From Leptothoe kymatousa TAU-MAC 1615 (GTDB taxonomy: Bacteria > Cyanobacteriota > Cyanobacteriia > Phormidesmidales > Phormidesmidaceae), in the NCBI RefSeq assembly GCF_018739865.1, contig NZ_JADOER010000009.1, forward strand, positions 62,001-126,000: 64,000 nt of DNA, written 5' to 3'. This document shows positions 22,791 through 54,522 of the stretch, in pieces. The position numbers and the translations under genes are program-made. The notes below the pieces were generated by a model. It was given only the letters and a program-made list of their open reading frames with translations, was not told the origin of the DNA and made no database searches. Every line of letters begins with the position of its first letter. Position 1 is the stretch's first letter.

Positions 22791-24116
22791 GTGAAAAACA
22801 ATTGTTTCACCAAATTCTTCGGCTTTGGATTGAGCATTGTCAGTATTCTGATGTTGCAGACCTCAGCCAATGCACAAACTTTAACATGGGCTAGGATCGA
22901 ACTACTGCGTAATCGCGTACATCTTGTTTCTAAAGGTCGCACGGCAAGACGTGCTCGAATTTTTGACCAACTCAGTGTGGGAGATGCCCTCCGCACGTCT
23001 GCGTCGTCACGAGCTGAATTACGATTTAATGATGGTTCTTTGGCTCGCATTGGTTCTCACGCCACATTTAGATTCACTCCAAATACCCGCAATTTTCAGC
23101 TATCTAACGGTACAGTGTTGATGCTGGTGCCGCCTGGACATGGCCGTTCTACCATTCAAACCCCTAATGCAGTCACTGGTATTCAAGGGTCAGCATTATT
23201 TGTTCGATTTATTCCAGAAACCAACACCACCATTATTGGTGCTTTAACAGACAATCCTGGTGGACCGATGATGGCCTACAATCAGGACGGTTCGCAACAA
23301 CAACCATTATCTTCTGGGCAGTTGGTGGTGGTAAACAACAATTCCGTTAGGCCACCTGTAGAGTTTGATCTTAGAACTTTCTATGAAACCAGCGGATTAG
23401 CCGAGGGTCTCAACCTCAATAACCCCAATGGTTCAATTGAGTCTGACGACCTAGATGCAGTGAGACAAGAGATCAAGGATGCCATCGAAAAACAAGCCCC
23501 ATTATCAGACAGGGCAACTAGTAGTGCAACCTTTTCGGTACCTGCTTCAAGTTCTGGAAGTAATGATTTTTCCGAAGAACAAACAGACAGCTTTGCCAAC
23601 TCAGAGACTGCGTTCAAAAACTCTCCTGCTGCTACCTTTCTAGGGGAAGTTCCAGCGCCCACACAATTGTCCGAGACAACTTCACCCAATGATGGTGGCA
23701 CCAATGTACCCCTACCTTCCATAGATGAGATTCCACAAACAGCAGATATTGAAAGCAGCATTAGTTCTGATCTAGGGCTACCAAATAATGGTGCTGCTGC
23801 CAGTACATCCCCGCCCTTAAATGGCACGCCGCCTGGGTTAGGGGGCAATGTCCCCCCAGGGCAAGGTGGCACACCGCCTGGGTTAGGGGGCAATGTCCCC
23901 CCAGGACAAGGTGGCACACCGCCTGGGCAGGGTGGCACACCGCCTGGGTTAGGAGGCAATGTCCCCCCAGGACAAGGGGGCACACCGCCTGGGTTAGGGG
24001 GCAATGTCCCCCCAGGGCAAGGGGGCACACCGCCTGGGTTAGGGGGCAATGTCCCCCCAGGGCAAGGGGGCACGCCGCCTGGGCAGGGTGGCACACCGCC
24101 TGGACAGATTAATTAA
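22791..24116 (+). CDS. Exported FecR-domain protein with Gly-Pro repeats
   Basis: 441 residues, starting at a GTG at 22791. A signal peptide ends near SANAQ (about 28). Residues ~30-190 form a FecR-type domain: it begins with a strand, then VGDALRTSASSRAELRFNDGSLARIG, followed by IQTPNAVTGIQGSALFVR. FecR domains occur in anti-sigma regulators and in exported proteins that assemble surface structures. The middle (~200-340) is Ser/Thr/Asn-rich. The last ~95 residues are repeats of GTPPGLGGNVPPGQG, encoded by a tandem repeat. No sigma factor is adjacent, so a surface or cell-wall role is more likely than anti-sigma. Confidence 0.8.
   Translation: MKNNCFTKFFGFGLSIVSILMLQTSANAQTLTWARIELLRNRVHLVSKGRTARRARIFDQLSVGDALRTSASSRAELRFNDGSLARIGSHATFRFTPNTRNFQLSNGTVLMLVPPGHGRSTIQTPNAVTGIQGSALFVRFIPETNTTIIGALTDNPGGPMMAYNQDGSQQQPLSSGQLVVVNNNSVRPPVEFDLRTFYETSGLAEGLNLNNPNGSIESDDLDAVRQEIKDAIEKQAPLSDRATSSATFSVPASSSGSNDFSEEQTDSFANSETAFKNSPAATFLGEVPAPTQLSETTSPNDGGTNVPLPSIDEIPQTADIESSISSDLGLPNNGAAASTSPPLNGTPPGLGGNVPPGQGGTPPGLGGNVPPGQGGTPPGQGGTPPGLGGNVPPGQGGTPPGLGGNVPPGQGGTPPGLGGNVPPGQGGTPPGQGGTPPGQIN
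23823..24109 (+). repeat. Tandem repeat encoding Gly-Pro-rich tail
   Basis: Units of 15 bp (GGCACACCGCCTGGG) and 45 bp (15 + GTTAGGGGGCAATGT block + CCCCCAGGGCAAGG block) repeated about six times, with single-base variants such as GGACAAGG for GGGCAAGG. They encode GTPPGLGGNVPPGQG and shorter GTPPGQG units. Confidence 0.9.
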
Positions 24117-26682: not shown

Positions 26683-29600
26683 TTAGTCAGCATGGGACAG
26701 CTGGGTAGGAATTTGGATGCGAAACATTGTTTTATTGTTGCTAGACTCACAGGTGAGACAACCCTGGTGATGCTCTACTACAATTTGGTATGAAATCGAT
26801 AAGCCTAGGCCGGTACCTTTGCCAGGGGGTTTTGTGGTGAAAAAAGGATCAAACATACGTTTGATTACCGACTCTGGCACCGTAGGCCCGTTGTTGGCAA
26901 TGCTCACGTCTACATTAGAACTGTTGGTTTGTAACGTAATCTCCACGGTCGGGGCTTCCACCTGATGTTCATGGAGGGCATCGATGGCATTGCTGATGAT
27001 ATTCATAAATACCTGGTTCAGCTGAGCGGGATAGCATTCCACGGTGGGAATATCGTTGTAACGTTTAATGATTTCAACGGCGGGAACGTCACCATCGGCC
27101 TTTAGCCGGTGCTGCAAGATCAGTAGGGTACTGTCGATACCCGCCGCTAGGTCTACGGCTTTGACTTCGGCTTCGTCCAATCGGGCAAAGTTCTTCAAAG
27201 AGGAGACGAGTTCTAAAATTCGCGTACTGCCGTTGGAAAGAGAATAGAAAATCTTAGGTAGATCTTGGATAACAAATTCTAGGTCGGAATCTTTGGTTAA
27301 AGATACCAATGAATCGGGTAAATCTGGATGCTGTTGATAGGCGTCCAATAGCCGCAGTAAATCGCCAACATATTCTTCAAGGTGGGCGATATTACCATGG
27401 ATAAAGGTGACAGGATTGTTGATTTCATGGGCCAGACCGGCCACTAACTGCCCCAGGCTAGACATTTTCTCTCCTTGCACTAGCTGTAGCTGGGTGGTGC
27501 GCAGGGTGTCTAATGTGGTCATTAACTCGTCCGCCTGCTGGCGAGTTGCTTTTAATAGGGTGGCCTGCTGAATGGCCAACCCCATTTGGGCGGCAATTTG
27601 AGCCATTAGGTCTACGTCGCCAGACTGCCAGCGGCGGGGACCATCGTTTTGATATCCGGTCAATAGGCCCCACAGATTTTCACCTTGAAAAATGGGTGCG
27701 ATCGCATAGGCCTTTGCCTGGAATTGTTCTAGTAGTTGAATGTGGCACTCGGTGTAGCCGGCGGTATAGATATCATCTACGGTAAATGTCTCTTGGTGGC
27801 GGTAGCGCCCCCCGAGGGTATCTTCCAAGAACGTATCCTTAATGGCTGTCAGCGTTCCCACCAGGGCATCCCATTCTTGACCGACGGATTCCGCAACAAA
27901 CTGCCCGCTCCAATCGGGGGCAAACTGGTAAATGGCCACCCGATCTAACTCTAGTAAATGCCGAACTTCCCGGGTCGTGGTTTGAAAAATTGTTTCAATA
28001 TCGAGAGATTGCCGAATTTTGTTGACCGTCCTGGCAATGAGGTTTTGTCGTTCTAGCAATTGTTCACGGGTTTTAGCCGCTGCCGCCCGCGCGCTTTGCT
28101 GCTGCATTTTCTTTAGATAGTCAGCCTGTTGAATGGCAACACCCAGGTGTTCTACAAGCAGCTGAACAAATTCAATGTCTTCTTGGGCCCAGTGGCGCGG
28201 TCCCTCGCACTGGTGAATACAGAATAGGCCCCAAAGCTTGTTTTCGATGTTGATGGGCACGACTAAATTGGCGCGGATTTCAAACTGTTCTAGAATTTGT
28301 CGGTGACAATCTTGCAGGTCGCTTTTGGTAATGTCTGAAATAGCATGGTATCGACCTTGGACATAAAGCGGAGCAAAGCGATCGCTAAAGCAATGATCGT
28401 GCACATGTTTATCGAGGGTGGATTGCCAACGGGCCCCCACTGACTCGGCAATAAAGGACCCTTCCCAGTCCTGGGTCGGATCAAATTTGAAAATACCGAC
28501 GCGATCGCTATCGAGGAGATGGCGCACTTCTTGGGCCGTAGTTTTAAAGATGCGATGGATATCCTGGGATTGGCGAATACGAGAAATGGCCTGTACCAGA
28601 ATCTTTTGGCGATCGGAGCGTTCTTTGACCACCTGTAAATATTTGGCTTGCTGAATCGCCACCCCCAGCTGCTCGGCAATGCAGTTAACAAATTCCACCT
28701 CATCTTCTTGCCAATACCTGGGGTTTTCGCACTGATGCACACAGAGCAATCCCCACAGCTCGGTTTGGCTGGTCAAAATTGGTACCACCAGGTTGGCGCG
28801 GACTTCAAACTTCTCTAAAATTTGAATGTGACAATCTTGCAGATCGTGGTTGTAAATATCTGGAATGCTACAGTATCTTCGCTGGGGGTATAGGGCCGCA
28901 AATTTTTCACCAAAACAATGGTCGTGCACTGGATTTGCCAGGGCCGACTTCCAGGGAGCCCCTACGGATTCGGCAATGAATTCACCTTCCCAGTCTTGTT
29001 CGGGGGCGAACTTAAAAATGCCGACACGGTCTGCATCTAGCAGGTGCCGCACTTCCTGGGCCGTAGTTTTAAATGTGCGAAACAGGTCTTGGGATTTACG
29101 GATTTGGCCCAGCACCCGCACCAGCACTTTTTGTCGATCGGAACGGGCTTTGACAGCTTGTAAATATTCGGCCTGTTGGATGGCTATGCCAAGCTGTTCA
29201 CCAATGGAGCTGACAAAGTCAATTTCGTCGGCTTTCCAATCCCTGGGACCTTCACATTGGTGGACACACAGGAGTCCCCACAGGGTTTTCCCTTTAACGA
29301 TGGGAACGACCATATTGGCCCGCACCTGAAACTGGGACAAAATTTGAATATGGCAGTCCTGCAAACCATGGTCGTAAATATCTGCGATCGCATGGGTTTT
29401 ACCTTGCACATATAGGGGGGCAAAATCGTCACTAAAGCAGTGGTCATACACTGGACTTGCTAGGGCCGATTTCCAACTAGCCCCCACCGATTCTGCTACA
29501 AATTCGCCTTCCCAATCTTGATGGGGATAGAAATAAAATATCGCGACGCGATCGGCTTCTAAAAGTTGTCGGATTTCACTAGTCGTAGTCTTAAAGATAC

Positions 29601-29694
29601 GGTGCAGATCCTGGGACTGCCTAATCCGAGTTACCACACGAAATAAAGCTGCTTGCTGAGACTCAGGACTATTGAAAGTTAAGGAAGCCGGCAT
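26683..29694 (-). CDS. Soluble histidine kinase with four cyanobacteriochrome-like GAF domains
   Basis: 1003 residues, no membrane segment. GAF1 (about 20-180), GAF2 (195-360), GAF3 (370-530) and GAF4 (550-720) precede a HisKA (EKMSSLGQLVAGLAHEINN, His756) and an HATPase domain (NQVFMNIISNAID, KGTGLGLSISYQ). GAF1-3 each carry a DHCF motif (C86, C260, C435) and a CH motif (C114, C288, C463), exactly 28 residues apart, the arrangement of DxCF-type cyanobacteriochromes that attach a bilin through two cysteines. GAF4 has the canonical C650-H651 and no DxCF, resembling red/green types. Bilin binding and light sensing are inference. No response regulator is adjacent. Confidence 0.9.
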   Translation of the reverse strand: MPASLTFNSPESQQAALFRVVTRIRQSQDLHRIFKTTTSEIRQLLEADRVAIFYFYPHQDWEGEFVAESVGASWKSALASPVYDHCFSDDFAPLYVQGKTHAIADIYDHGLQDCHIQILSQFQVRANMVVPIVKGKTLWGLLCVHQCEGPRDWKADEIDFVSSIGEQLGIAIQQAEYLQAVKARSDRQKVLVRVLGQIRKSQDLFRTFKTTAQEVRHLLDADRVGIFKFAPEQDWEGEFIAESVGAPWKSALANPVHDHCFGEKFAALYPQRRYCSIPDIYNHDLQDCHIQILEKFEVRANLVVPILTSQTELWGLLCVHQCENPRYWQEDEVEFVNCIAEQLGVAIQQAKYLQVVKERSDRQKILVQAISRIRQSQDIHRIFKTTAQEVRHLLDSDRVGIFKFDPTQDWEGSFIAESVGARWQSTLDKHVHDHCFSDRFAPLYVQGRYHAISDITKSDLQDCHRQILEQFEIRANLVVPINIENKLWGLFCIHQCEGPRHWAQEDIEFVQLLVEHLGVAIQQADYLKKMQQQSARAAAAKTREQLLERQNLIARTVNKIRQSLDIETIFQTTTREVRHLLELDRVAIYQFAPDWSGQFVAESVGQEWDALVGTLTAIKDTFLEDTLGGRYRHQETFTVDDIYTAGYTECHIQLLEQFQAKAYAIAPIFQGENLWGLLTGYQNDGPRRWQSGDVDLMAQIAAQMGLAIQQATLLKATRQQADELMTTLDTLRTTQLQLVQGEKMSSLGQLVAGLAHEINNPVTFIHGNIAHLEEYVGDLLRLLDAYQQHPDLPDSLVSLTKDSDLEFVIQDLPKIFYSLSNGSTRILELVSSLKNFARLDEAEVKAVDLAAGIDSTLLILQHRLKADGDVPAVEIIKRYNDIPTVECYPAQLNQVFMNIISNAIDALHEHQVEAPTVEITLQTNSSNVDVSIANNGPTVPESVIKRMFDPFFTTKPPGKGTGLGLSISYQIVVEHHQGCLTCESSNNKTMFRIQIPTQLSHAD

Positions 29695-37204: not shown

Positions 37205-40200
37205 CTAAAGAGGACTAGGGGGATCCTCTAGGGGGATTCGAATTTGAAACTCGGTGCCCTGTCCTAGCTCAGACTGTACGTCTAAACTGCCGCCGTGGGT
37301 CTCGACGATGATTTGATGTGCGATCGCAAGTCCCAATCCAGTCCCCTTGCCGATTTCCTTGGTCGTAAACAAATGGTCGAAAATCCTGGATTGCACCTCA
37401 TCCGTCATCCCAGTACCATTGTCTGAAATTCGAATTTCCACATACTCAGCTAACTCAACAGTATTAATAGTGATTGTCTGAGGAGTCTTCTCCAAATCTT
37501 CAAAGGTCATGTGATTTGCCATTTCATCAAACATATCAATGGCATTGGCCAGAATATTCATAAATACCTGGTTCAGCTGTGCCGGGAAACAGTTGATTTC
37601 AGATAAATCATCACCATAGTGTTTAAGCACTTCAATGGCTGGACGGTGTTCATTCGCTTTAAGTCGATATTTGAGAATTAACAGGGTGCTATCGAGTCCT
37701 TCGTGAATATTGACGCTGACTTTTTGGGTTGTATCGGCCCGAGAAAATGTACGGAGACTGGTGCTGATATCTGTAATCCGATCAGCGGCAGTTTGCATTG
37801 AGTTTAATAGCTTAGGAAAGTCTTCCAGGAGAAAGTCTAAATCAACCTCTTCTGCACTAGCTTGTACTGCTTCATTGGGGGGCTGTTGCGATTGATAGGT
37901 ATCTAGATGATCAAACAGATCTTGAATATAGTCTTTTGCATTTTCAACGCTACCGTTAAGAAAGCCAATGGGATTGTTGACTTCATGGGCCACCCCTGCG
38001 ACTAAGTTGCCCAGCGTAGCCATTTTCTCCTGTTGGACAAGCTGTAGCTGGGACTGTTCTAATCGCTTAGCATAGTGTTGAGATTGTTGATAGAGGCGGG
38101 CATTCTCTAAAGAAATTGCGGCCTGGCTACAGAGAAAATTGAGTACTAAAATACGGTCTTTAGTAAATGCACCACTGGTGAGATGATTGTTGAGATATAA
38201 AATGCCAATTAGATGTCCTTGGTTGAGTAAGGGTAAACATAATATGCTTTTGGGTCGATGCTTTCTGAGGTAGTCATCAATGACCGGTAAGTCAGTCTTT
38301 AAGTCATTAATGACCAATGTTTTCTGGGTGTTTTTGACATATTGAATCAGGTTGACTGGTAAATTTGGATTATTGGCCAAGGGAACAGTCTGAAGTCTTG
38401 TTTGTTCAGAGCTAGCCGTTGCCTGTACCTGCCACTCTCCTTGTTCCGTCGGTAAAACCAGCGCACAGCTATTGCCCCCAGAGTTTTGGAGAATAATTTG
38501 GGTCAGTTGAGACAGCAGCTCGTCTAGTTGAATAGTGCCAGACAGTGCTTGGGAGGCTTTGAGGATGCTGGCAAAATCTAGAGCCTCATTCAGACTTGTG
38601 TTCTTGGAACTGTGGCGTGTGCCAGGATGAACGGAATCCTCTGGTGCAGCGATAGTCATCAGGGTGGTCAACATATCCCCTGCCGCCGCTGGTGGTTGCA
38701 GAATCGGTTCTAATAGTTCAGGATATCGGATTTCTAGGTCAGCGACTTTTACCTTGGCTCCCCAGCGTGCATAGCAATAGTAGGCTTCTTGCATATAGAC
38801 TGCAGCAACTTTTTCTTTTTTCCACCCTAGGTAGAGCTTAGCTGCAAGCTCATTAGCAACGGCTTCTTCTTGAATATAGTCTTCTGCTTTGGCTCCGGCA
38901 ATGGCCCTATCGTACCAATCTATGGCATCAGCATACTGATGCAGATAAGCGTACGTTCGGGCTTTAACTAACTCGTACTTATGCTGATAGTTAGCCGGAC
39001 TATGTTGTCCCCACAGTTTCAACTTTTCTTGATTTTCAGCAATTCGTTGCAACAGTAAATCTGTGTGTTCTCTGCTAGAGTCTCTATTAGAGTCTAGGCT
39101 AGTTAAATCAACACATTGTTCTAGTTGTACAAGGGAATCGTAAAAAAAGAATAATGGTTGCATTACCATAGCTGTAGCGCTAGGCGCATGCTGTCGGGCT
39201 ATATCAGCATATTCGCTTGCCAAGCTTAATTCTTCGAATAAATAAGCTAGAACCATTTTGTTGCTATACAAAACAAATAGGCCGATACCTTCACTTGCGG
39301 CTTGATATCGAGAGCTGACCTCAGATTCATCAAACGATGAATCTGTCAGTATCCAGGGCTGTGGATCCCCAATCGTTAATTTCGCCACCACCTGACTGTA
39401 AATGCGACTCCAGCCCAATTGCGACTCTTGATGAATGTTGGCAATTGCCTGACAGTAAGGCGGAATGAGCGATCGCAGGTCGTCTAAGTTCAGCCCCGCC
39501 AAAAATGATGTGGCACAAAGAAAAAACGCGCCGTAGGCAGCAAATTCTAAATCACCTGAGTCAAGCGTTTCCTGATAGGCCTGTTCAAGCGGATTTAGGA
39601 AATCTCTTAGGGCTTCTTTCCAGTGGGCGACTGTCATGTAGTGAACCACTTTAGCCCTGGCCTGTAAGCCCGATTTGGGAAACTGTTCGGTAATGGCCAG
39701 GGCTAACTCACCAAATTGGTACCCGGTTTCAATGTCATTTAAGACGGCGCATAACAGCAAGCCATAGTCTGCGTAAGTGTGGGCTGATTCCGGGGCGCTA
39801 CCATACGCCAAACAAATGTTCATGCGGGTACAAATTTCAATGGGAATCAGTTGGGGGGCAGCAAAAAATGCGGCTGAATGCACCGCTCCCAAAATTTCAA
39901 TCATGGCCAATTGGTCAGAGGTTTGATTGTGGGGGAGTTTGAGTAAATCCTTGATAGTCCTACCGGCAAGGGCCGTTTGAGTTTTAGCTAAGAGAGCTTC
40001 AACATCCGAGGGGGAGGGCTGCAGGGTAATGTTTGCTCCCAAGGCCTGTAGGATCTGAATTGCCGTTTCTACCGCTAGTAGGGGCTGACGGCTGGCCGTT
40101 TGGGCCTGAATTTTTGTTTTGTAAATGCCTACGGTCTCCAGGGGTGTGCGCACATGGTCTAACACTGTTTGGATACAGCTTTCCATGAGTTCAAATTCAG

Positions 40201-42703
40201 CACTCAGGTAGGCTGATTCTGCTGCTTTTTCATAGAGCGTCAATGCCAGGTTATAGTCCACACTCCAAATGTCATTGCCCAGTTTTTGGAGTAACTCCAG
40301 AGCAGCTCGGATACAGTCCAGTGCAGTGGAGTAGCCGGTCACTTCAAGCATTTTGTCCGCAGCTTGAAGGTTCAGCTGAATCAAGGCCCTAATGTCACGT
40401 TCAGTACTCAGTTGTTTGATTCCTACATTGAGATGAGATACGACTTCACAAATGACGGCATCTAAGTCTTCTGTGGGGGTATTGGCTAGCAACAATTGAC
40501 CAATGGTGACATGGGTCGTAATCCTCGCCTCATCAGACAACAGTAAATACGCCGCTTGCTGGATTCGATCATGGGCAAAGCGGTAGATTATAGTTGGTTG
40601 AGCTTTGTTATGTTGAATAGTTTTTGAGGTAATATCAGGTGCTATTTTGTTAAGGGTTCTATTTTCATAAAAGAACTTATAGTGCCCTGATTCTGGAATC
40701 AGAAACCCTTCCCGCAGAGCGATCCATAGTTGTTCGGCAACATCATGGGGCGATTTTTCACACACCATTGCCAGAGTCTCCAAATTGATCTGGTTACCCA
40801 TGCAAGCAGCCAACGTTAGTACCCCTTGCGTTTCGGATGGTAATGTCCTCAATCGCCCCATCATAAAAACAACCACATCATCTGTTGCAACTCGTTGTTC
40901 AACTTGAGCTAAGTTGTAGTTCCAAGACCCTGCATCGCTGTCAAAGTTAATACAGTTTTCCGCGTGTAATTCCTGCAAACACTGGGTTGTAAAAAACGGG
41001 TTGCCCTGGGTCTTTTTATAGATCAACTGGGCCAAGGGGTCAGTAAGGTTGATGGGACACCGCAGTGTATCGGCCACTAACTGAACAATATCCGGCTGGG
41101 CCAAGGGGGCAAGATCCAAGGTGCTGACGGGGATATGCTGACTAATATTCTCAACGGTCAGCATTAGTGGGTGAGCCGCGAATACCTCATTGTTCCGGTA
41201 GGCTCCCAACACAAGCAAATAGCCTGTTTGCGGATCGAACTCAGCCTCGACCATTAATTGGTTCAACAAGTTCAATGAGGCTAAATCAGCCCACTGAAGA
41301 TCATCTAAAAAGATGACCAGAGGGTGCTCTTTTGTGGTGAACACCTGCACGAATTTACCAAATACCAGTTTGAATCGATTGAGTGCAGCACTGGCAGACA
41401 GTTCTGATAGTGCAGATTGTTCCCCGATGATATTTTTTAGTTCGGGAATCACCTCCAGGATGACTTGCCCATTGTCTCCAACTGCATTCAGAATATCTGT
41501 CTTCCATTGGGTAAGGGCCGCATCAGATTCACCTAAAAGTTGACCCACCAAGGTGCGAAACGCTTGGACAAAGGCACTAAATGGAATGTTGCGATTGAAC
41601 TGGTCAAATTTACCTTTGATGAAGTAGCCCTTTTGTCGCGTAATCGGCTTGTGGACTTCATTAACGACGACTGTTTTACCGATGCCGGAAAAACCTGCCA
41701 CAAGCATGAGTTCTGAATTACCTTGGGCAACCCGCTCAAAGGCATCTAGCAAAGTTTGGACTTCCTGTTCACGGCCATAGAGTTTCTCCGGGATCATGAA
41801 GCGATCGCACTCATCCCGCTGGCCCAATTTAAATGCGGTAATTTTCCCGTGTGACCGCCATTGCCCCAGGCATTGCTGGAGATCGGATTTAAGTCCAAGG
41901 GAACTCTGATAGCGGTTTTCAGCATTTTTAGCCATCAGTTTGGCCACGATTGTCCCCACCATGGGGGGCACTTCCGGGGCGACTTGATCCACAGGTGCAG
42001 GCAACTTAACCATGTGGCAATGGATTAATTCCAACGGATCGGCGGTGGGAAAGGGGAGTTGACCGGTGAGCAGTTGGTACAGCGTCACCCCCAGGGAGTA
42101 AAAGTCCGTGCGGTAGTCAATAACACGATTCATGCGGCCAGTTTGCTCAGGGGCCATATAGGCCAAGGTCCCTTCCAAGCTCTTGGGATTTTGGATAGCC
42201 TGGGTTTCCTTGGGCAACAGCGAGGAAATACTAAAGTCAATTAGTTTGACTTGTTTAGATTCTGGATAAATTAGAATATTGGCGGGCTTAATATCCTTAT
42301 GAATTACTCGATGCTGATGAAGCTCGTGGAGAATATTCGCCAATTGGGTTGCGATACTGAGGATCTCAGAGAGTTTAAGGGTTTTTTGTTTAACAAACTG
42401 TCCTAGGTCAACGCCTCCCCTGTCTTCCATTACCAGGGCATAGCCATTACCGATGGATTCCAGACCGATGGGGCGGACAATGCCTGATAAGGGTAAATTT
42501 TTGGCAACCGTATATTGATTGCGGAACTGTACGAGTTCTGAAAATTTTGGATATTGCTGAGTCAGGACTTTAATCACCACGGGCTGTTGGGTGGCTGTTT
42601 CTACAGCTCGGTAGACTGTGGTTCGAGTCCCCTGGTAGATCATTTCTGTAACGGTGTAGTCAGTCAGTTGATGGGAAAGAAATGATTTAACAGCAGTGTT
42701 CAT
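37205..42703 (-). CDS. Ser/Thr kinase - AAA ATPase - GAF - histidine kinase fusion
   Basis: 1832 residues from the ATG at 42703. The open frame continues to 43288 but overlaps trmFO, so that extension is rejected. A protein kinase at about 15-275 has Lys45, the catalytic loop HKDIKPAN (D137) and DFS for DFG. An ATPase (about 300-600) has Walker A GFSGIGKT and VIFLDDLQWAD. An ~750-residue helical, TPR-like region follows, then a GAF domain (about 1380-1520), HisKA (AHEVNNP) and HATPase (NQVFMNILANAID, GKGTGLGLAIAHQ). Such trifunctional proteins are common in filamentous cyanobacteria; ligand and target are unknown. 139 bases from divergent trmFO. Confidence 0.92.
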   Translation of the reverse strand: MNTAVKSFLSHQLTDYTVTEMIYQGTRTTVYRAVETATQQPVVIKVLTQQYPKFSELVQFRNQYTVAKNLPLSGIVRPIGLESIGNGYALVMEDRGGVDLGQFVKQKTLKLSEILSIATQLANILHELHQHRVIHKDIKPANILIYPESKQVKLIDFSISSLLPKETQAIQNPKSLEGTLAYMAPEQTGRMNRVIDYRTDFYSLGVTLYQLLTGQLPFPTADPLELIHCHMVKLPAPVDQVAPEVPPMVGTIVAKLMAKNAENRYQSSLGLKSDLQQCLGQWRSHGKITAFKLGQRDECDRFMIPEKLYGREQEVQTLLDAFERVAQGNSELMLVAGFSGIGKTVVVNEVHKPITRQKGYFIKGKFDQFNRNIPFSAFVQAFRTLVGQLLGESDAALTQWKTDILNAVGDNGQVILEVIPELKNIIGEQSALSELSASAALNRFKLVFGKFVQVFTTKEHPLVIFLDDLQWADLASLNLLNQLMVEAEFDPQTGYLLVLGAYRNNEVFAAHPLMLTVENISQHIPVSTLDLAPLAQPDIVQLVADTLRCPINLTDPLAQLIYKKTQGNPFFTTQCLQELHAENCINFDSDAGSWNYNLAQVEQRVATDDVVVFMMGRLRTLPSETQGVLTLAACMGNQINLETLAMVCEKSPHDVAEQLWIALREGFLIPESGHYKFFYENRTLNKIAPDITSKTIQHNKAQPTIIYRFAHDRIQQAAYLLLSDEARITTHVTIGQLLLANTPTEDLDAVICEVVSHLNVGIKQLSTERDIRALIQLNLQAADKMLEVTGYSTALDCIRAALELLQKLGNDIWSVDYNLALTLYEKAAESAYLSAEFELMESCIQTVLDHVRTPLETVGIYKTKIQAQTASRQPLLAVETAIQILQALGANITLQPSPSDVEALLAKTQTALAGRTIKDLLKLPHNQTSDQLAMIEILGAVHSAAFFAAPQLIPIEICTRMNICLAYGSAPESAHTYADYGLLLCAVLNDIETGYQFGELALAITEQFPKSGLQARAKVVHYMTVAHWKEALRDFLNPLEQAYQETLDSGDLEFAAYGAFFLCATSFLAGLNLDDLRSLIPPYCQAIANIHQESQLGWSRIYSQVVAKLTIGDPQPWILTDSSFDESEVSSRYQAASEGIGLFVLYSNKMVLAYLFEELSLASEYADIARQHAPSATAMVMQPLFFFYDSLVQLEQCVDLTSLDSNRDSSREHTDLLLQRIAENQEKLKLWGQHSPANYQHKYELVKARTYAYLHQYADAIDWYDRAIAGAKAEDYIQEEAVANELAAKLYLGWKKEKVAAVYMQEAYYCYARWGAKVKVADLEIRYPELLEPILQPPAAAGDMLTTLMTIAAPEDSVHPGTRHSSKNTSLNEALDFASILKASQALSGTIQLDELLSQLTQIILQNSGGNSCALVLPTEQGEWQVQATASSEQTRLQTVPLANNPNLPVNLIQYVKNTQKTLVINDLKTDLPVIDDYLRKHRPKSILCLPLLNQGHLIGILYLNNHLTSGAFTKDRILVLNFLCSQAAISLENARLYQQSQHYAKRLEQSQLQLVQQEKMATLGNLVAGVAHEVNNPIGFLNGSVENAKDYIQDLFDHLDTYQSQQPPNEAVQASAEEVDLDFLLEDFPKLLNSMQTAADRITDISTSLRTFSRADTTQKVSVNIHEGLDSTLLILKYRLKANEHRPAIEVLKHYGDDLSEINCFPAQLNQVFMNILANAIDMFDEMANHMTFEDLEKTPQTITINTVELAEYVEIRISDNGTGMTDEVQSRIFDHLFTTKEIGKGTGLGLAIAHQIIVETHGGSLDVQSELGQGTEFQIRIPLEDPPSPL

Positions 42704-42842
42704 ATCCTGAAAAATTAAAACAATCGTGGTAGCTCTAGATTTCCCAACATCCGAGTTATCGTTCTTGCCCTTGAAGCTAACTAACTTTTTGGTCAACTCA
42801 AGCCGTGCAACTCTATAATTAATCGATCTCAACACTTTTACG

Positions 42843-44234
42843 ATGACAGTTCCTGCACGTAATCCCATCCACGTTATCGGCGGCGGCCTGGCTGGTACCG
42901 AAGCCACCTGGCAAATTGCCCAGGCGGGCATCCCGGTCATCCTCCACGAAATGCGACCGGTGAAGCGCAGCCCGGCCCACCATTCGGAGCATGTGGCGGA
43001 GCTAGTGTGCAGCAACTCCTTTGGGGCCAAGGCCACGGATCGGGCCTCCGGGCTGCTCCATGGGGAACTGCGGCAGCTGGGGTCATTGGTGATTGCTAAA
43101 GCCGACGAGAATGCGGTGCCAGCGGGGGGAGCCCTGGCGGTGGATCGGGCGGTGTTTAGCCGGGAGCTAACGGAAACCCTGGAGCAGCATCCGCTGATCG
43201 AGCTGCGTCGCGACGAAGTGCAGTCCATTCCCGACGACAGTACGGTGGTGCTGACCACGGGGCCCCTCACCAGCGATGCCCTAGCCACGGACCTGCGCCG
43301 GTTTACGGGCCAGGACTACATGAGCTTTTTTGATGCCGCTAGCCCCATTGTTGTCGGCGAATCGATCAATCGGGATGTGGCCTTTATGGCCTCCCGCTAT
43401 GACCGGGGGGAGGCGGCCTATTTGAACTGCCCCATGGACAAAGAGCAGTACCTGGCCTTTTGGACGGCGCTGTGTGAGGCGGAACAGGCGGAGCTGAAGG
43501 ACTTTGAACGGGAAACGGCGAAGTTTTTTGAGGGCTGTTTGCCCATTGAGGTGATGGCCCGCCGGGGGGAGGACACCATGCGCTATGGACCTCTGAAACC
43601 GGTGGGGTTGTTTGATACGGATCGCTATGGTGCGTTTGATGCGCCGGAAAATAAGGGTAAAAAACCCTATGCGGTGGTGCAGCTGCGCCAGGAGGATAAG
43701 GGTGGCCAGCTGTGGAATATGGTGGGCTTCCAGACGAACCTGCGCTGGGGCGAGCAAAAGCGGGTGTTCCAGATGATTCCGGGGCTGGAAAATGCGGAGT
43801 TTGTGCGCATGGGGGTGATGCACCGCAATACGTTTATTAATTCGCCGGAATTGTTGAGCAGCGCCCTGCAGTTCCACAGGCGGGAGAATTTGTTTGCGGC
43901 GGGGCAGCTGGTGGGCACCGAAGGGTATACTGCCGCCTGTGCCGGGGGCTGGTTGGCGGGCACCAATGCGGCCCGGTCGGTGTTGGGTCTGCCGCTGGTG
44001 TCGTTGCCGGTAACTACCATGGTGGGGGCGCTGTTTGGCTTTATTAGCTCGGCGGAACCGAAGCATTTTCAGCCGATGCCGCCTAATTTTGGTATTTTTC
44101 CGGCCCTGCCTGAACGGATTCGCAATAAGCGGGAGCGCTATGGTAAGTATCGCGATCGCAGTTTCTCAGACCTCCAAACCTGGGCCGAGGCCAACCAAAT
44201 CCAGTTAAAACAACTCGCCTTAGCCACCGCGTAG
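42843..44234 (+). CDS. trmFO: Folate-dependent tRNA m5U54 methyltransferase TrmFO
   Basis: 463 residues. An FAD-binding GxGxxG fold at the start ([19 protein letters not shown]), then [11 protein letters not shown], the DAASPIV block, [21 protein letters not shown] and [12 protein letters not shown]. It methylates U54 of tRNAs with methylene-THF and FADH2, in place of SAM-dependent TrmA. Normal length. It lies directly before the phosphatase-superfamily gene (22 bases). Confidence 0.97.
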
Positions 44235-45170: not shown

Positions 45171-47645
45171 TTAACAAGCATACAAATGCTGGGGACGGTA
45201 TTTCTCAACAACCGTCAGCAAGTCCTCCGACTGCACCGGTTTAGACACATAATCTGTTGCCCCAAGAGAATTTCCCAATGGTTCATCCGCCTGCATCGTA
45301 TGCAAAATCAAAGGCGTTTTAGCAAGCACCGGGTTATCCCTAAGTGTTTTAATCATTTCCCAGCCATCTACCTTCGACGTCACCACATCCAAAAGAATAA
45401 TGTCAGGCATCAACTGTTCTGCCATTTGTAACCCCGCCTGGTGATTGTGGCTCAACACAACAAAGTATCCCTCACTGGCAAGGATTTTGCGCACCACATC
45501 ACAGGATTCCAAATCATCATCAATCACTAACACACAGCCTAAACAGTCATCCCCCGGCAACTCTGGCACCTTCACCGCCGCATCAAGGGACAGCGGCCGG
45601 TCCAACCCATGGGCGCTACTGCCAACCGGTTCCTCCACAGGGCTTTCCACAGGGTTCTCTACACCACCCCCCCCAGGCTCAACCATTTGAACAGTTTTAG
45701 GAATACGCAAAGTGAAGGTGGTACCCACCCCCATTTCACTTTGCACATCCACCGTTCCCCCCATCATCTCCACAAACTGTTTCGTGATGGTTAGCCCCAA
45801 CCCCGTACCGCCATACTTGCGCGTAGTAGACGAATCCGCCTGGGCAAACGCATTAAACACACGCTTTAGCTGGTCGGGCAGCATGCCAATGCCCGTATCC
45901 TGAATTTGAAACGTAATCCAAGGAATCTTACCGATGATACTGATATCAACACTTAAGGTAATGGTGCCATTATGGGTAAACTTGTTGGCATTGCTCAAGA
46001 GATTATACAAACTCTGCCGCACCTTCACCGCATCTGCCCGCATCTTACCAATGGTCTGGGAACATTGGATTTGCAAATTGTTGTTACTTTTAACAACAAC
46101 CGGTTGAATGGTAGACACCACATCCTTCACTAAGGGCATCACCTCAAAGGTCTCTAGATGCAGATCCATCTGTCCCGCTTCTACCTTAGAGAGATCTAAC
46201 ACACCATCAATCAAACCCAGCAAATGTTTGCCCGCATCCTGAATCTTTTTCAATTCAGGAATAAACTCCGTTTGCTCCATATCCTGAGCATCTTCCTCTA
46301 ATAGCTCACTGTAGCCAATAATGGCATTTAGGGGCGTGCGCAGCTCATGGCTCATATTAGCCAGAAAATCACTTTTCGCTTTGTTGGCCTGTTCTGCCTT
46401 GAGCCGTTCTGCTTCCGCTTTTTGACGCGCCTCATCCGCCTTTTTCAAGGCTTCGTCATTGGCCTCTAGGCTTAATGCCAGCTGAAACTCTGCCCGTTTC
46501 TGATCACTAATGTCCTGCCAGACAATGGACAGCCCCGTCGCCGTCGGAGTTAGACTCAGCTCCAACCAGCGCTCTTGGGCATACAATCGCGTCTCAAACG
46601 TCAGGGTCTCCTGTTGACTAACCGCCCGCTGATAATAATGTTTTTTCTCCTGCCCCAACTCCTTAGGAAACACAGACCACAACTGTTTTCCCATCAAATC
46701 TTCTGGCCGCTGATTCAAATCCTCCAGCGCAGACGCGTTAATACTCGTAATCATCCACTGATGATCCACGTCCACAGAGGCATCATCCATACTCTCAAAC
46801 AGAGTATCAGCGATTTTCTCAACGCGATAAAATTGTTTTTTCAGCTGCCAACCATAGGCCGCAGCTCCCAGCATGCCTAACCCCCAGGCGATCGCTGCCA
46901 GTTGAAACCATCGAGTACGAACCGTAGTTTGCTGATAGGTCAACTCATAGGTTGCCATCAACGACTGCAACTGCTCAGTCGTGGGCACAGCCAAAAGGGA
47001 TTGGGTCAACTGATCGACCTGGGGCTTCCTATCCAACACCACATTGGCCTGCTGCAGAATAGCACCAATGTCACCTTGCCCTGCCTGCTTCCCCGCCAGT
47101 GCCTGCACTTGACTAATGGTGGCACTCAGGTCAGCCGCCGCCGCATCGGCCGACAGGCCATAGACTAAGGCCTGATCAACCAAATGCGTAAGGGATTGCC
47201 CCAATGCACCGTCTGCATTGACCTGCCCTAGCAAAGCAGACATCTTCGCGAGAGACTCTTTTATCTGCCCATGCTCAACCTGAAATTGCTCGGATAGCAA
47301 TGCCTTTTCTTCCAGCAGTTGATTGCTAGTTTCTACAACCTGCCACAGCTGTTGAGTGGCCTGATCATTTTGAGTATTCAACAACGCAGGTAGCGCCTGC
47401 AGACTCTGGCGAGAGGCCTCCGTCTGCGTTAGAGCTTCGGCTAAGGATGCATGATCAGGGTCCAATGTCTGACGCACTTCTAATACAGCCTGGTTGACAC
47501 CAAGGTCATACTGCAGTTGCTTAGCTAGTGCATCTTTATATGTGACATGGTCTCCAGTGGGAATGGAGCGGCCTTTAAAAAGTAGTCCCCCCCAGATCAT
47601 TAGTGCACCGGCAGTCGCCGAAAGTATGATCAATTTTTGCTTCAT
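45171..47645 (-). CDS. Membrane hybrid histidine kinase with PAS and receiver
   Basis: 824 residues. Two membrane helices (about 6-24 and 247-268) flank a ~220-residue all-helical periplasmic sensor, possibly of the DAHL kind. A PAS domain (about 275-385) and a Glu/Ala-rich coiled coil (about 390-430) follow. HisKA has FLANMSHELRTPLNAIIGYSELL and HATPase has GTGLGLTITKQF. A C-terminal receiver (about 700-820) has IDDD, LLDVV and YVSKPV. It begins a phosphorelay to an unlinked partner. Convergent with the metalloenzyme gene, 20 bases apart. Confidence 0.93.
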   Translation of the reverse strand: MKQKLIILSATAGALMIWGGLLFKGRSIPTGDHVTYKDALAKQLQYDLGVNQAVLEVRQTLDPDHASLAEALTQTEASRQSLQALPALLNTQNDQATQQLWQVVETSNQLLEEKALLSEQFQVEHGQIKESLAKMSALLGQVNADGALGQSLTHLVDQALVYGLSADAAAADLSATISQVQALAGKQAGQGDIGAILQQANVVLDRKPQVDQLTQSLLAVPTTEQLQSLMATYELTYQQTTVRTRWFQLAAIAWGLGMLGAAAYGWQLKKQFYRVEKIADTLFESMDDASVDVDHQWMITSINASALEDLNQRPEDLMGKQLWSVFPKELGQEKKHYYQRAVSQQETLTFETRLYAQERWLELSLTPTATGLSIVWQDISDQKRAEFQLALSLEANDEALKKADEARQKAEAERLKAEQANKAKSDFLANMSHELRTPLNAIIGYSELLEEDAQDMEQTEFIPELKKIQDAGKHLLGLIDGVLDLSKVEAGQMDLHLETFEVMPLVKDVVSTIQPVVVKSNNNLQIQCSQTIGKMRADAVKVRQSLYNLLSNANKFTHNGTITLSVDISIIGKIPWITFQIQDTGIGMLPDQLKRVFNAFAQADSSTTRKYGGTGLGLTITKQFVEMMGGTVDVQSEMGVGTTFTLRIPKTVQMVEPGGGGVENPVESPVEEPVGSSAHGLDRPLSLDAAVKVPELPGDDCLGCVLVIDDDLESCDVVRKILASEGYFVVLSHNHQAGLQMAEQLMPDIILLDVVTSKVDGWEMIKTLRDNPVLAKTPLILHTMQADEPLGNSLGATDYVSKPVQSEDLLTVVEKYRPQHLYAC

Positions 47646-47937: not shown

Positions 47938-48285
47938 ATGGCGAAAATTAACATTGCCCACGAAACCAGCTCCGCTGCCGCGGCAGAAAAACACGCCCAG
48001 AAACTGCGCAGAAATGGAGAAACCGTCACGTTAATCTGTCGAGAGACTTTCCCAATAGCAGATGCCATGTTTCCGTTTCTCGCCCATCTATCAGCAACGG
48101 CTGACTACACCCTCATTTTACTGCCACCTAGCTCCACTTCTAGCTCATCTGTTTGGATATCAAAAGAACTACATTTACAACATTCACTAGGCAACTTCAC
48201 CAATATTTACCCAGCATTTTCAAACCACACAGACGTACCCAGATGGTGGGCAACAGAAGATAGTACAGTGAGAATACTCAGTTAA
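47938..48285 (+). CDS. Small unknown protein, possibly TIR-like
   Basis: 115 residues from the ATG at 47938; the ATG at 47884 would add 18 residues. The pattern INIAHETS, a helix with KHAQKLRRNGE, a strand VTLICRE, a helix, then YTLILLPPSS, SSSVWISKEL, and FTNIYPAF resembles the strand order of TIR domains (first strand, alphaA, then the D-strand with S..S.W..E). The Glu in ISKEL would sit near the catalytic Glu of NADase TIRs. This is a shape comparison, not a demonstrated homology. No partner effector or sensor gene is next to it. Confidence 0.45.
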   Translation: MAKINIAHETSSAAAAEKHAQKLRRNGETVTLICRETFPIADAMFPFLAHLSATADYTLILLPPSSTSSSSVWISKELHLQHSLGNFTNIYPAFSNHTDVPRWWATEDSTVRILS

Positions 48286-48315
48286 CAACGTGGATCCACA
48301 CATTAACAGAAAATA

Positions 48316-48555
48316 CTAGCCTAACAGCGAGGCCATCGACCGATGGGCCGTTTGCCCCAACATCGTCTGGCCATCAATGTCAGCATACTGACGGCTTGAG
48401 CCAAACACCCCATCACCAGTGACAATCATATTTTTCTGTCGATCAAACCCTAGCATTAACCACAACAACGCCAGACCCACAGCGGCGATCAAAGTCGCTG
48501 CGAATCCTAAAGCATTTATCATTCTTGTTAGCATTAGCCTTAACCTGTTGCGCAT
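48316..48555 (-). CDS. Possible small membrane protein
   Basis: 79 codons with a strong hydrophobic segment (about 14-37, INALGFAATLIAAVGLALLWLML is the core) and a short polar C-terminal tail. Not recognised. Convergent with the preceding gene. Coding support is modest. Confidence 0.35.
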   Translation of the reverse strand: MRNRLRLMLTRMINALGFAATLIAAVGLALLWLMLGFDRQKNMIVTGDGVFGSSRQYADIDGQTMLGQTAHRSMASLLG

Positions 48556-48932
48556 TCGCCATGGGCATTATTTTTGCAACCCCACAGGCGTAAAACATAG
48601 ACCTACCTCTGCACCCATGGGGTCTATAACCTTGTCTAGAGCATGCCCAAGAACAGCGTAGTTAACACACGTCAGTAGTAGCTCAAGGCCTCGGAAAACA
48701 GATATTCCTTGGCATACTTTTACCGTCTAAACCTAGACGACTAAAAAATCTCGACCATCGGTTCACAAACGAATTTACACAGCCAGCCCGTATTAAATCA
48801 AGATCATCTTAGCCATAGCTTAAAATCTGACCATTCTTTATAAAGAGGACTTTACAATCTGACCATACAGTCTAGAAAATTTGGCCATGCCCCATGGTGG
48901 CTGGCATAGGCTGCTTAAAATATTGTCAGCTT
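48556..48932. other. 377-base gap, no gene seen
   Basis: No credible gene. Between a small minus-strand frame and the stop of the alpha/beta hydrolase gene. No strong hairpin was found. Confidence 0.4.
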
Positions 48933-49778
48933 TTACAAAGACTGAGGATGCACCGCAAGAAATTTACTCAGGGACTGATAAAAGGCATCTGGCTCCACCA
49001 GGAATGCCCAATGATTCCCTGGTATTGTTTCTGTGGCTAGGTTTTTCAAATATTTCCGATAGGGTTTTAGCTGCCAGTCAAACCGGTTCACCCCTGCTTC
49101 TGGCTGCATAAACAAGCTAGGCACCTGAATATCCCCAATCAATCCTGGCACTCTCAGCACCGCATCAAAAATGCCATCCCGCGCTTCTAGGGTAAATTTA
49201 CTACCTATCTTGCCATCACGTTTCTCTTCCAAACTCTCTCGGAAGACAGCCGCTTGCAAATCATTCCAGGCACGATATTGTTTCATCCGCTTACCCTGGT
49301 CAATGGCATCATCCCAGGTTTCAAACGGCCCCATCCCTTTTAGGAACGGTAGCGTGCCATAAAACAAAGGAAACGTCAGCCGAAAAATGCCCGGCATACC
49401 ATAGACAAAAATGGGATCCACCAGCACCATAGACAAAAATCGCTCGGGTTGCCGCGTGGCCCAGTAGGTTGCCACCTTCCCCGACCAGGAATGTCCCACA
49501 ATATGCGCTTTTGCCCAGCCCAGGTGATCCATCAGCTGAACCAGATCATTAACCACCGTATCAAAGTCATACCCGCCATCGGGTTTATCGCTTTGCCCAT
49601 GGCCTCGCATATCCACGGCAATGGGTTGATAGGTCTGGGCCAACTGATCCGCCACCGCTGACCAGCCCAAAGCATGATCGGCTAAGCCATGGAGCAGCAA
49701 AATGGGCTCACCATCGGTTTCCCAGTCGAGATAAGACAGGTTAATGCGATTTAGGAAAACAGTTTTACGAATAGCCAT
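48933..49778 (-). CDS. Alpha/beta hydrolase
   Basis: 281 residues. The oxyanion loop is LLHGLADHA, the nucleophile elbow VGHSWSGKVA (Ser), and the His is in PGNHWAFL near the end. A Asp after LVDP or further along (MQPEAG) would complete the triad. Similar to haloperoxidase- or esterase-type single-domain hydrolases; the substrate is not evident. No signal peptide. Starts at the ATG at 49778. Confidence 0.88.
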   Translation of the reverse strand: MAIRKTVFLNRINLSYLDWETDGEPILLLHGLADHALGWSAVADQLAQTYQPIAVDMRGHGQSDKPDGGYDFDTVVNDLVQLMDHLGWAKAHIVGHSWSGKVATYWATRQPERFLSMVLVDPIFVYGMPGIFRLTFPLFYGTLPFLKGMGPFETWDDAIDQGKRMKQYRAWNDLQAAVFRESLEEKRDGKIGSKFTLEARDGIFDAVLRVPGLIGDIQVPSLFMQPEAGVNRFDWQLKPYRKYLKNLATETIPGNHWAFLVEPDAFYQSLSKFLAVHPQSL

Positions 49779-50180
49779 AACATCATGGGGGTAGATGCCT
49801 ATTCATCATGCCATTTGAGGCTCAGTTAATCACTGGCAAGCTCGGACTCAATCGGTAATTAACTGGGGTCAACTAGGGGCGCAATCCAATGGGGTTCGGA
49901 ATTTTGAATTCGGAATTTTGAAGTCTACCCTAGCCAAGATGATCGGTTAAATTCGTGCCCCGCCAGTGATGGCACTCTGCCAGACAGCTTGTTGGAATAT
50001 TTTGGTCTGGGCAAAAAAAATAAATCCAAAGTCTGGACGGTCCCGTACAGATATTTAGTTAGCAATCACACCAATAGATCAGGCCACGGCTGATGACGAA
50101 CAGCTGCTCCCAGCAGTTTGTTCATCAGTGGTGCAGATTTTGCTGCTTAATCGTCAACAACATTAGGAGAAGACTCAGGC
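49779..50180. other. 402-base upstream region of the fasciclin gene
   Basis: No gene. It contains the heptameric repeat at 49894-49921. A ribosome site AGGAGA lies 11 bases before the fasciclin ATG. Confidence 0.45.
49894..49921. repeat. Heptameric repeat
   Basis: TTCGGAATTTTGAA twice (a 14-bp period made of two heptamers). Same family as 34658-34692 read from the other strand. Confidence 0.75.
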
Positions 50181-51623
50181 ATGACTACTAACTCTCTAAC
50201 CACCATTGCCGACATTGTGGTTCAAAGCGGTGGCGAGTTTGACCATAATAACCAGGACTTTGATATCCTGCTCCAGGCACTACAAACGGCTAACCTCACC
50301 AATGTTGTTGCAGATCCAAACGCAGATCTGACAGTTTTTGCCCCTACGGATGCCGCCTTTATTCAGCTAGCCCAAGACCTTGGCTTTGAGGGTAGTGATG
50401 AAGCCGGAGCCTTTAATGCCATCGTCGGAACCTTAACTGATTTGGGCAACGGCGATCCAATTCCGGTATTGCAAGCTGTGTTGCAATACCATGTTTCGGC
50501 AGATGCAAAGACTCTGGAAGATATTCAAGCTGCCGACTCAATTAGCACTTTGTTAGACGGGGCTACACTAACGCCCAATGGCAACTCTCTTATCGATAAT
50601 GAGCCAGATATTGTTGACCCTAGTTTTATCGAAGCACTGACTGATATTCAAACCGATAACGGCATCATCCAGGGTATCGACCGGGTGCTAATCCCCCTAG
50701 ATATTCCTGGTAATGGGCCAGCGCCTAGTCCTGCGCTGCCAGCTACCATTGCCGATGTTGTAGCGCAGAGCGGTGGCACTTTTGACGACAATAATCAGGA
50801 TTTTGACATCCTATTAACGGCCCTAGAAACCGCCGGACTGACTGCGGCTGTAGCCGATCCAAATGCAGACCTGACAGTTTTTGCTCCGACAGATGCGGCC
50901 TTTATCCAGCTAGCCCAAGACTTGGGCTTTGAGGGTAGTGATGAACCCGGTGCCTTTAATGCCATCGTTGGTGCCCTGACTGAGTTAGGTGAGGGGGACC
51001 CAATTCCTGTATTGCAAGCTGTGTTGCAATACCATGTTTCGGCAGGTGCAAAGACTCTGGAAGATATTCAGATTGCCGACTCTATTAGCACTTTGTTAGA
51101 CGGGGCCACCCTCACCCCCAATGGCAATTTTCTGATCGACAATGAGCCAGACATTATTGACCCCAAGTTTGTTGATGCACTCACCGATGTGCAAACCGGT
51201 AACGGCATCATTCAAGGGATTGATCGGGTACTGATTCCCCTGGATATTCCTGGCAATGAGCTGAATGTTGTACCGGGGACAAACGGTAACGATCATCTGT
51301 TGGGGACAGATAGCTCTGACCGGTTAGTGGGTTTTGCTGGCATTGACCGTCTCGTTGGGGGGGGTGGGGATGATATTTTTGTGCTTGGGGATGCCCACGG
51401 TAGTTTTTACGCGGAACATGAGTATCTAGACTTTGCTGACATTGTTGACTTCCAGGCAGGTGCGGATATTATCCAGCTAAGCGGCTCCATGGGGGATTAC
51501 ACGTTTAAGGCCGTAAACGGCGGCACGTGGATTTTTGCAGGTAATGAAAGTAAGGGAGAATTGGTGGCGGATGTGTTTAATGCATCGGTCGATGATGTGA
51601 CTGCGAGCATTCAGTTTGTTTAG
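50181..51623 (+). CDS. Twin-fasciclin domain protein with RTX-like tail
   Basis: 480 residues. Two FAS1 domains (about 5-170 and 186-350), each with TVFAPTDAAF and VLQYHV motifs, repeat with an exact 181-residue (543-bp) period. They are nearly identical, even in parts of the DNA (for example 50471-50513 against 51014-51056). A C-terminal ~120-residue domain has GTNGNDHLLGTDSSDRLVG and GGGGDDIFVLG calcium-binding nonapeptides like secreted RTX proteins. No N-terminal signal peptide, so export is probably through a type I system. FAS1 proteins mediate adhesion in cyanobacteria and elsewhere. AGGAGA precedes the ATG. Confidence 0.88.
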   Translation: MTTNSLTTIADIVVQSGGEFDHNNQDFDILLQALQTANLTNVVADPNADLTVFAPTDAAFIQLAQDLGFEGSDEAGAFNAIVGTLTDLGNGDPIPVLQAVLQYHVSADAKTLEDIQAADSISTLLDGATLTPNGNSLIDNEPDIVDPSFIEALTDIQTDNGIIQGIDRVLIPLDIPGNGPAPSPALPATIADVVAQSGGTFDDNNQDFDILLTALETAGLTAAVADPNADLTVFAPTDAAFIQLAQDLGFEGSDEPGAFNAIVGALTELGEGDPIPVLQAVLQYHVSAGAKTLEDIQIADSISTLLDGATLTPNGNFLIDNEPDIIDPKFVDALTDVQTGNGIIQGIDRVLIPLDIPGNELNVVPGTNGNDHLLGTDSSDRLVGFAGIDRLVGGGGDDIFVLGDAHGSFYAEHEYLDFADIVDFQAGADIIQLSGSMGDYTFKAVNGGTWIFAGNESKGELVADVFNASVDDVTASIQFV

Positions 51624-51639
51624 TAGGGTTAGCCGTTAG

Positions 51640-51686
51640 ACTTGCAGGGCAAGCATCCTTTGAAAACGGTTGCCTGCCCTGCAAGT
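51640..51686. repeat. Inverted repeat after the fasciclin gene
   Basis: Perfect 12-bp arms ACTTGCAGGGCA (51640-51651) and TGCCCTGCAAGT (51675-51686) around 23 bases. No T run follows, so it is not a classic terminator. Confidence 0.7.
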
Positions 51687-51752
51687 TCTCTGAATTTCAG
51701 GAAGATTGAACGCCTCTCAAGGTTCAGCGATAACACAAATCTAATGTAGGGG

Positions 51753-54395: not shown

Positions 54396-54483
54396 GGCCG
54401 CTCACCATATAGGGAGTGAAATTGTTTCACTGTCGTAGATTTCCAGTGTAACGCCCTGATCCATAAAGGGTTATAGCCTTTTC

Positions 54484-54522
54484 CAAAAGAAAATACTTCA
54501 GCCGCCGAAGCACCTGAAGTAT
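54484..54522 (-). terminator. Terminator of the glycine-zipper protein gene
   Basis: On the minus strand, ATACTTCAG/CTGAAGTAT (54514-54522 with 54493-54501) with a 12-nt loop, followed by TTTTCTTTT. It lies 36 bases after the stop at 54558. Confidence 0.75.

Follow-up and report, generated by a model that had tools for sequence, protein, structure and literature searches.

A probable soluble cyanobacteriochrome histidine kinase from Leptothoe kymatousa with three DXCF-type GAF domains, a red/green-like GAF domain and an altered G1 box

We analysed a stretch of 64,000 nucleotides from Leptothoe kymatousa TAU-MAC 1615 (hereafter "the window", contig NZ_JADOER010000009.1, positions 62,001 to 126,000), in which one gene encodes a candidate photoreceptor kinase with the following features (coordinates of the window):

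26683–29694, minus strand: whole gene, 1003 aa, GAF1-GAF2-GAF3-GAF4-DHp-CA, without transmembrane segment
29149–29652, minus strand: GAF1 (aa 15–182), DXCF type, D84-H-C86-F and C114-H; based on sequence and structure model
28621–29124, minus strand: GAF2 (aa 191–358), DXCF type, C260 and C288; based on sequence
28093–28596, minus strand: GAF3 (aa 367–534), DXCF type, C435 and C463; based on sequence
27538–28047, minus strand: GAF4 (aa 550–719), red/green-like, canonical C650-H, I-K-D-T-F-L at the place of the XRG W-x-D-x-x-L
26686–27519, minus strand: transmitter (aa 726–1003), DHp with H756 (LAHEINNP), CA with intact N, F and G2 boxes
26881–26895, minus strand: altered G1 box (residues 934–938), N-N-G-P-T versus D-x-G-x-G

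Pfam recognises four GAF stretches in the protein, an HATPase_c domain (73.3 bits versus a cut-off of 26.4) and a HisKA domain that falls slightly below its cut-off (24.6 versus 26.9 bits). No membrane segment is apparent over the whole protein, the highest 19-residue Kyte-Doolittle mean being 1.24, so the soluble four-GAF architecture of the original prediction is borne out. Judging from the sequence, the gene very probably encodes a soluble cyanobacteriochrome sensor histidine kinase with three DXCF-type GAF domains and one red/green-like GAF domain.

The DHCF motifs start at residues 84, 258 and 433, which puts their cysteines at C86, C260 and C435, and the cysteines of the C-H motifs are found at residues 114, 288, 463 and 650. 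As predicted, the pairs C86/C114, C260/C288 and C435/C463 are each exactly 28 residues apart. Their proposed equivalence to C494/C522 of TePixJ also holds: the DHCF...CH stretch of GAF1 aligns without gaps to the DPCF...ECH stretch of TePixJ, with GAF2 and GAF3 in the same register. According to PMC6955287, the bilin of TePixJ is attached in the usual way at C522, with a second attachment from C494 to C10. All three domains possess the second Cys of the D-x-C-F motif and a C-H at the position of TePixJ C522; the equivalents of TePixJ D492, C494, F495, C522, H523 and N535 are kept in 3/3, and the place of R507 is taken by K, R and R, respectively. At the places of the TePixJ contacts H498, W499 and Q526, however, the domains have D/K/R, F and I, which counts against our preferred interpretation. 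Compared with the TePixJ GAF domain (4fof, 3vv4; DXCF blue/green), the likeness thus lies in the cysteine spacing, the ungapped alignment and the retained D492, F495, H523 and N535 equivalents, while the differences comprise DPCF versus DHCF, the three replaced contacts, a separate branch in the trees and the output, which is a chemotaxis transducer in TePixJ and a kinase in the window protein.

In searches of solved structures with GAF1, GAF3 and GAF4 as single-domain queries, the best sequence match was 6bhn (NpR6012g4, red/green) for GAF1 (E 1.6e-46) and for GAF3 (E 9.1e-35), and AnPixJg2 (3w2z) for GAF4 (E 1.5e-58). The fact that GAF1 and GAF3 find a red/green domain rather than TePixJ as their best match is a second point against this interpretation. 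The cyanobacteriochrome GAF fold was found for GAF1, the one DXCF-type domain modelled (mean pLDDT 88.0, pTM 0.85). Its best fold match was called as 6oap, a structure entitled "dual sensor histidine kinase", with a TMq of 0.89; the model also matches AnPixJg2 3w2z (0.91) and TePixJ 4fof (TMq 0.85, rmsd 1.5). The kinase of 6oap/6oaq/6ob8 is likewise a tandem GAF sensor histidine kinase, but its aligned GAF domain reads V-E-D-Q-Y-F, without the second cysteine there. In the trees, DHCF domains stand apart from TePixJ-like DPCF domains and nearer to the XRG group, with weak deep nodes; that GAF1–3 do not join TePixJ there is a third point against the preferred interpretation. Haem oxygenase is encoded in 8/8 genus genomes, and the genome of the window (G000) contains four bilin reductases above the NCBIfam cut-offs, namely two PcyA, one PebA and one PebB. 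The original prediction would fall if the GAF domains belonged to an unrelated clan. We consider the probability of a non-photosensory clan with coincidental motifs practically negligible, in view of the matches of GAF1, GAF3 and GAF4 to bilin-binding cyanobacteriochrome structures (E 1e-34 to 1e-58), the fold match of the GAF1 model, the repetition of the motif in fixed register and the bilin enzymes in the genome.

The three DXCF-type domains had been described as near-identical and their occurrence in a row as unusual, and neither description can be upheld. Pairwise identities among GAF1–3 are 68.1, 62.4 and 64.5% for amino acids and 63–68% for nucleotides; a recent origin as near-identical repeats is ruled out by this identity of only 62–68% and by the codons, since no more than about half of the identical residues share the same codon. 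Among the proteins fetched, at least four others have rows of three or more consecutive dual-cysteine GAF domains, namely L003, L115 (five), L185 (three) and L200 (three), and the combination of one or two DHCF GAF domains with a kinase is common among the fetched relatives. L003 (G000:C3, 997–4542), encoded in the same genome as the window protein, is a chemotaxis-type receptor with four consecutive dual-cysteine DPCF GAF domains and an MCP signalling domain. When 388 genomes of the class were sampled, 316 had a GAF alignment match at E ≤ 1e-40, counting other cyanobacteriochrome types as well; this is a sample rather than a census, with at most 9 candidates scored per genome, and 20 stretches were fetched from the matches listed for it and from one other search. 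The window protein is a true, well-conserved example of a common, known kind of sensor.

The assignment of GAF4 to the red/green type stands with respect to the canonical C650-H651 and the best match to AnPixJg2, but not with respect to the Trp of WxDxxL, whose place reads IKDTFL in GAF4 and ITDTHL and VADTYL in its orthologues. PMC11284453 gives this Trp as the defining residue of XRG domains and describes XRG domains with Cys at its place, which makes other replacements of the Trp of interest. The tree places GAF4 in a group of 40 XRG-like domains (clade support 0.959). All 40 are without Trp at the WxDxxL position, and 33 of them keep the canonical Cys; the joint clade with Trp-bearing XRG domains comprises 48 domains (support 0.745). 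GAF4 resembles the XRG red/green domains AnPixJg2, NpR6012g4 and Slr1393g3, its best sequence matches, in the canonical C-H, the x-x-D-x-x-L and the GGRYR context; it differs from them in its Ile (Ile and Val in the orthologues) at the Trp place and in its position in the Trp-less sister clade. The 40 domains come from 37 proteins, and 33 of these also carry a DHCF-type GAF domain in the same ORF (28 identified by clade, 5 by motif), a proportion biased upward because DHCF-bearing queries were used to fetch the loci; the remaining proteins are L027, L029, L113 and L118. In the open-licence papers searched, the term "XRG" was found and "DHCF" was not. The kinase L185 (G386, same family) is arranged like the window protein, with three dual-cysteine DXCF-type GAF domains followed by a Trp-less XRG-like GAF domain and a histidine kinase, but has a normal G1 box, IEDNGCGI.

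Our genus search covered 8 genomes and revealed full-length orthologues in two besides that of the window, L101 (G001, 79% identical) and L102 (G003, 78%). Neither has lost any of the seven cysteines, which excludes chance as the source of the motifs; both cysteines are present in 9/9 DXCF-type domains of the three orthologues, and in GAF3 of L102 the canonical Cys is followed by Tyr. In two trees, GAF1–3 of all three orthologues fall into a single clade (support 0.999 and 1.00), and the tandem duplication that produced the row therefore predates the split of the species. No partner response regulator was recognised among the neighbouring genes examined, and no conserved operon was found: the surroundings of the orthologues (L140, L141) share 0/42 of the window ORFs tested, except for kinase-type matches.

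The designation of the protein as a kinase holds insofar as the transmitter possesses HATPase_c, H756 within LAHEINNP and intact N, F and G2 boxes, but its G1 box departs from DxGxG. The three orthologues read IANNGPTVP, IAKNGLTVP and ISNNGPAVP, so that the Asp and the second Gly are lost in 3/3, with differing replacements (N..T, K..T, N..A; the Lys is that of L101). For comparison we used 121 other kinases, picked by their similarity to the window protein, of which 119 have Asp934 and 119 have Gly938. Of the columns, 70 show conservation in at least 93% of these kinases, and the orthologues differ at 5, 4 and 5 of the 70, four of these positions being shared (837, 850, 934 and 938). In the enlarged set of 143 kinases the two residues go together: Asp934 is present in 137, all of which have Gly938, while none of the six kinases without Asp has it. 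The six are the three orthologues, L005 and L013 (both from G000) and L192; the last three represent a joint loss of the G1 Asp and the second Gly outside the orthologue group of the window protein.

These observations bear on the possibility that a functional photosensory part is coupled to a pseudokinase, or to a transmitter acting mainly as phosphatase or scaffold, so that light would alter the docking of a partner and not autophosphorylation. Besides the G1 losses and the linkage of Asp934 with Gly938, it draws on the absence from the orthologues of H850, which is kept in 119/121 other kinases, on a light-independent precedent of a repurposed kinase, DivL (PMC4211667), and on the conservation of the individual domains. 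Identity among the orthologues falls from 87–89% in GAF1, the most conserved domain, to 67–71% in CA, the least conserved one. Yet this slope alone proves nothing, because L103 and L110, a pair with intact G1 boxes, show a similar fall from 82% in the DXCF-type GAF domain to 71% in CA. Since dS is saturated, dN/dS is unusable; for this reason, and because of the gradient in the L103/L110 control pair with G1 Asp, we do not claim relaxed selection on the kinase half. Against a pseudokinase speaks the retention of 65 or 66 of the 70 conserved transmitter columns, including H756, and 18/121 other kinases also deviate at four or more of them. Moreover, PMC10017428 reports that VanS and ThkA have Asn at this position and bind nucleotide. 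On balance, a pseudokinase appears possible but doubtful.

VanS is described there with the same pair of G1 departures as the window protein, Asn for Asp and no second Gly, and with weak, millimolar ATP affinity, and ThkA with an Asn in the G1 box that is hydrogen-bonded to the adenine; another Asp-to-Asn kinase cited in the same text prefers GTP, which VanS does not. In the Hsp90 relative, ATP binding is blocked by D79N, according to PMC12280139. For the CA part of our model (mean pLDDT 78.5), ThkA 3a0t is a close fold match at rank 8, with a TMt of 0.91 and an rmsd of 1.9 over 158 columns. VanS and ThkA are not photoreceptors, and one orthologue of the window type has Lys instead of Asn. Given the reports on VanS and ThkA and the proximity of the CA model to ThkA, we favour an altered or weak use of nucleotide over a dead kinase.

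Six genomes of the genus encode a related kinase whose GAF types follow one another as in the window protein and which has a further, shortened GAF domain: L104 (G006), L105 (G004), L106 (G005), L107 (G007), L109 (G002) and L120 (G003). Its position in the genus corresponds to the following site in the window:

49779–51752, no strand: interval flanked by the alpha/beta-hydrolase and P-type ATPase genes, where relatives have the five-GAF kinase (genus loci L142–L147)

In G004 the related kinase sits between the orthologues of window genes 48933–49778 and 51753–54395; the first of these neighbours was also seen in G003, G005 and G007, the second in G006, and neither in G002. The window instead holds a fasciclin/RTX gene at this site (50181–51623, plus strand), and no remnant of the related kinase was detected at 48000–54500, where tblastn searches with five of the related proteins gave E 0.63 at best. 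The genome G000 is only 75% complete. Cysteine losses in this group are nested in the tree. In L104 a single canonical Cys is missing and nothing else; L109, with three GAF domains aligned, retains one Cys of each kind, second and canonical; in L107 the second cysteines persist in two GAF domains, but a canonical Cys in register is absent throughout; and in L105, L106 and L120 all four GAF domains are devoid of both. The G1 box is normal in 5/5 readable members, the kinase part of L120 falling past the contig end. Identity rises toward the kinase, from 54–62% in the first GAF domain to 81–89% in the fourth and 87–92% in DHp, with 76–83% in CA.

As these relatives retain GAF folds without the cysteines, chains of this kind tolerate bilin-free GAF domains. 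It might be argued that some or all of GAF1–3 of the window protein likewise lack bilin or a dual-cysteine photocycle and serve as structural or small-molecule GAF domains, leaving GAF4 as the sole light sensor, an argument to which the D, K or R in place of H498, a propionate contact of TePixJ, would contribute. We regard this as quite unlikely, considering the cysteine pairs kept throughout the orthologues and the position of GAF1 as the most conserved domain of the protein.

The two types have diverged in opposite directions: the window type has every bilin cysteine and an altered G1 box, whereas the other has a normal G1 box (5/5 readable) and lost cysteines (6/6, with 3/6 affected at both positions in all four domains). 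G003 carries both, the orthologue L102 with intact cysteines and the Cys-less L120. One could imagine that the two act together as a split photoreceptor, in which one subunit serves as the "eye" and signals through the other, the "hand", within a mixed dimer or via a shared regulator, but this is a highly improbable scenario.

Other genes of the window may be mentioned here. A DAHL-PAS-histidine kinase-receiver hybrid (45171–47645, minus strand) adjoins the site of the related kinase; its G003 counterpart is 51% identical, versus 76–94% for its neighbours. The gene at 37205–43288 (minus strand) encodes a 2027-aa protein with Ser/Thr kinase, AAA ATPase, GAF and histidine kinase domains, and that at 22791–24116 (plus strand) a FecR-domain protein with a Pro/Gly-rich repeat run at its C-terminus (TPPGLGGNVPPGQGG).

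Returning to the preferred reading of the window protein as a cyanobacteriochrome histidine kinase, we infer bilin binding, colours, integration of signals along the dimer and kinase activity from its sequence. The haem oxygenase and PcyA of the cell would supply phycocyanobilin, to be attached at C114, C288, C463 and C650. In the dark state of GAF1–3, the second cysteine (C86, C260 or C435) would add to C10 of the bilin and yield a violet/blue-absorbing form, which blue light would open to a longer-wavelength photoproduct. GAF4, adjoining the DHp helix, would have C650 as its only bilin attachment and would respond in a longer-wavelength range. The two colour ranges of the original prediction are thus plausible for three DXCF-type domains and one red/green-like domain, the colours themselves being deduced. 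Because the four GAF domains of one chain would steer a single dimer of H756-bearing DHp helices, one output would pool both ranges. Nucleotide binding is probably retained in the CA domain, whose VanS-like G1 box could confer weak ATP affinity or a changed nucleotide preference.

Two points merit the attention of specialists, the G1 change and the relatives without bilin cysteines. The former allows VanS-like handling of nucleotides to be put to the test in a photoreceptor kinase, and the latter, ranging from one lost cysteine to none left, provide a series for asking what role a photoreceptor has after the loss of its pigment site. With three homologous dual-cysteine domains beside a Trp-less red/green-like domain, colour tuning and signal pooling may be compared within one protein.
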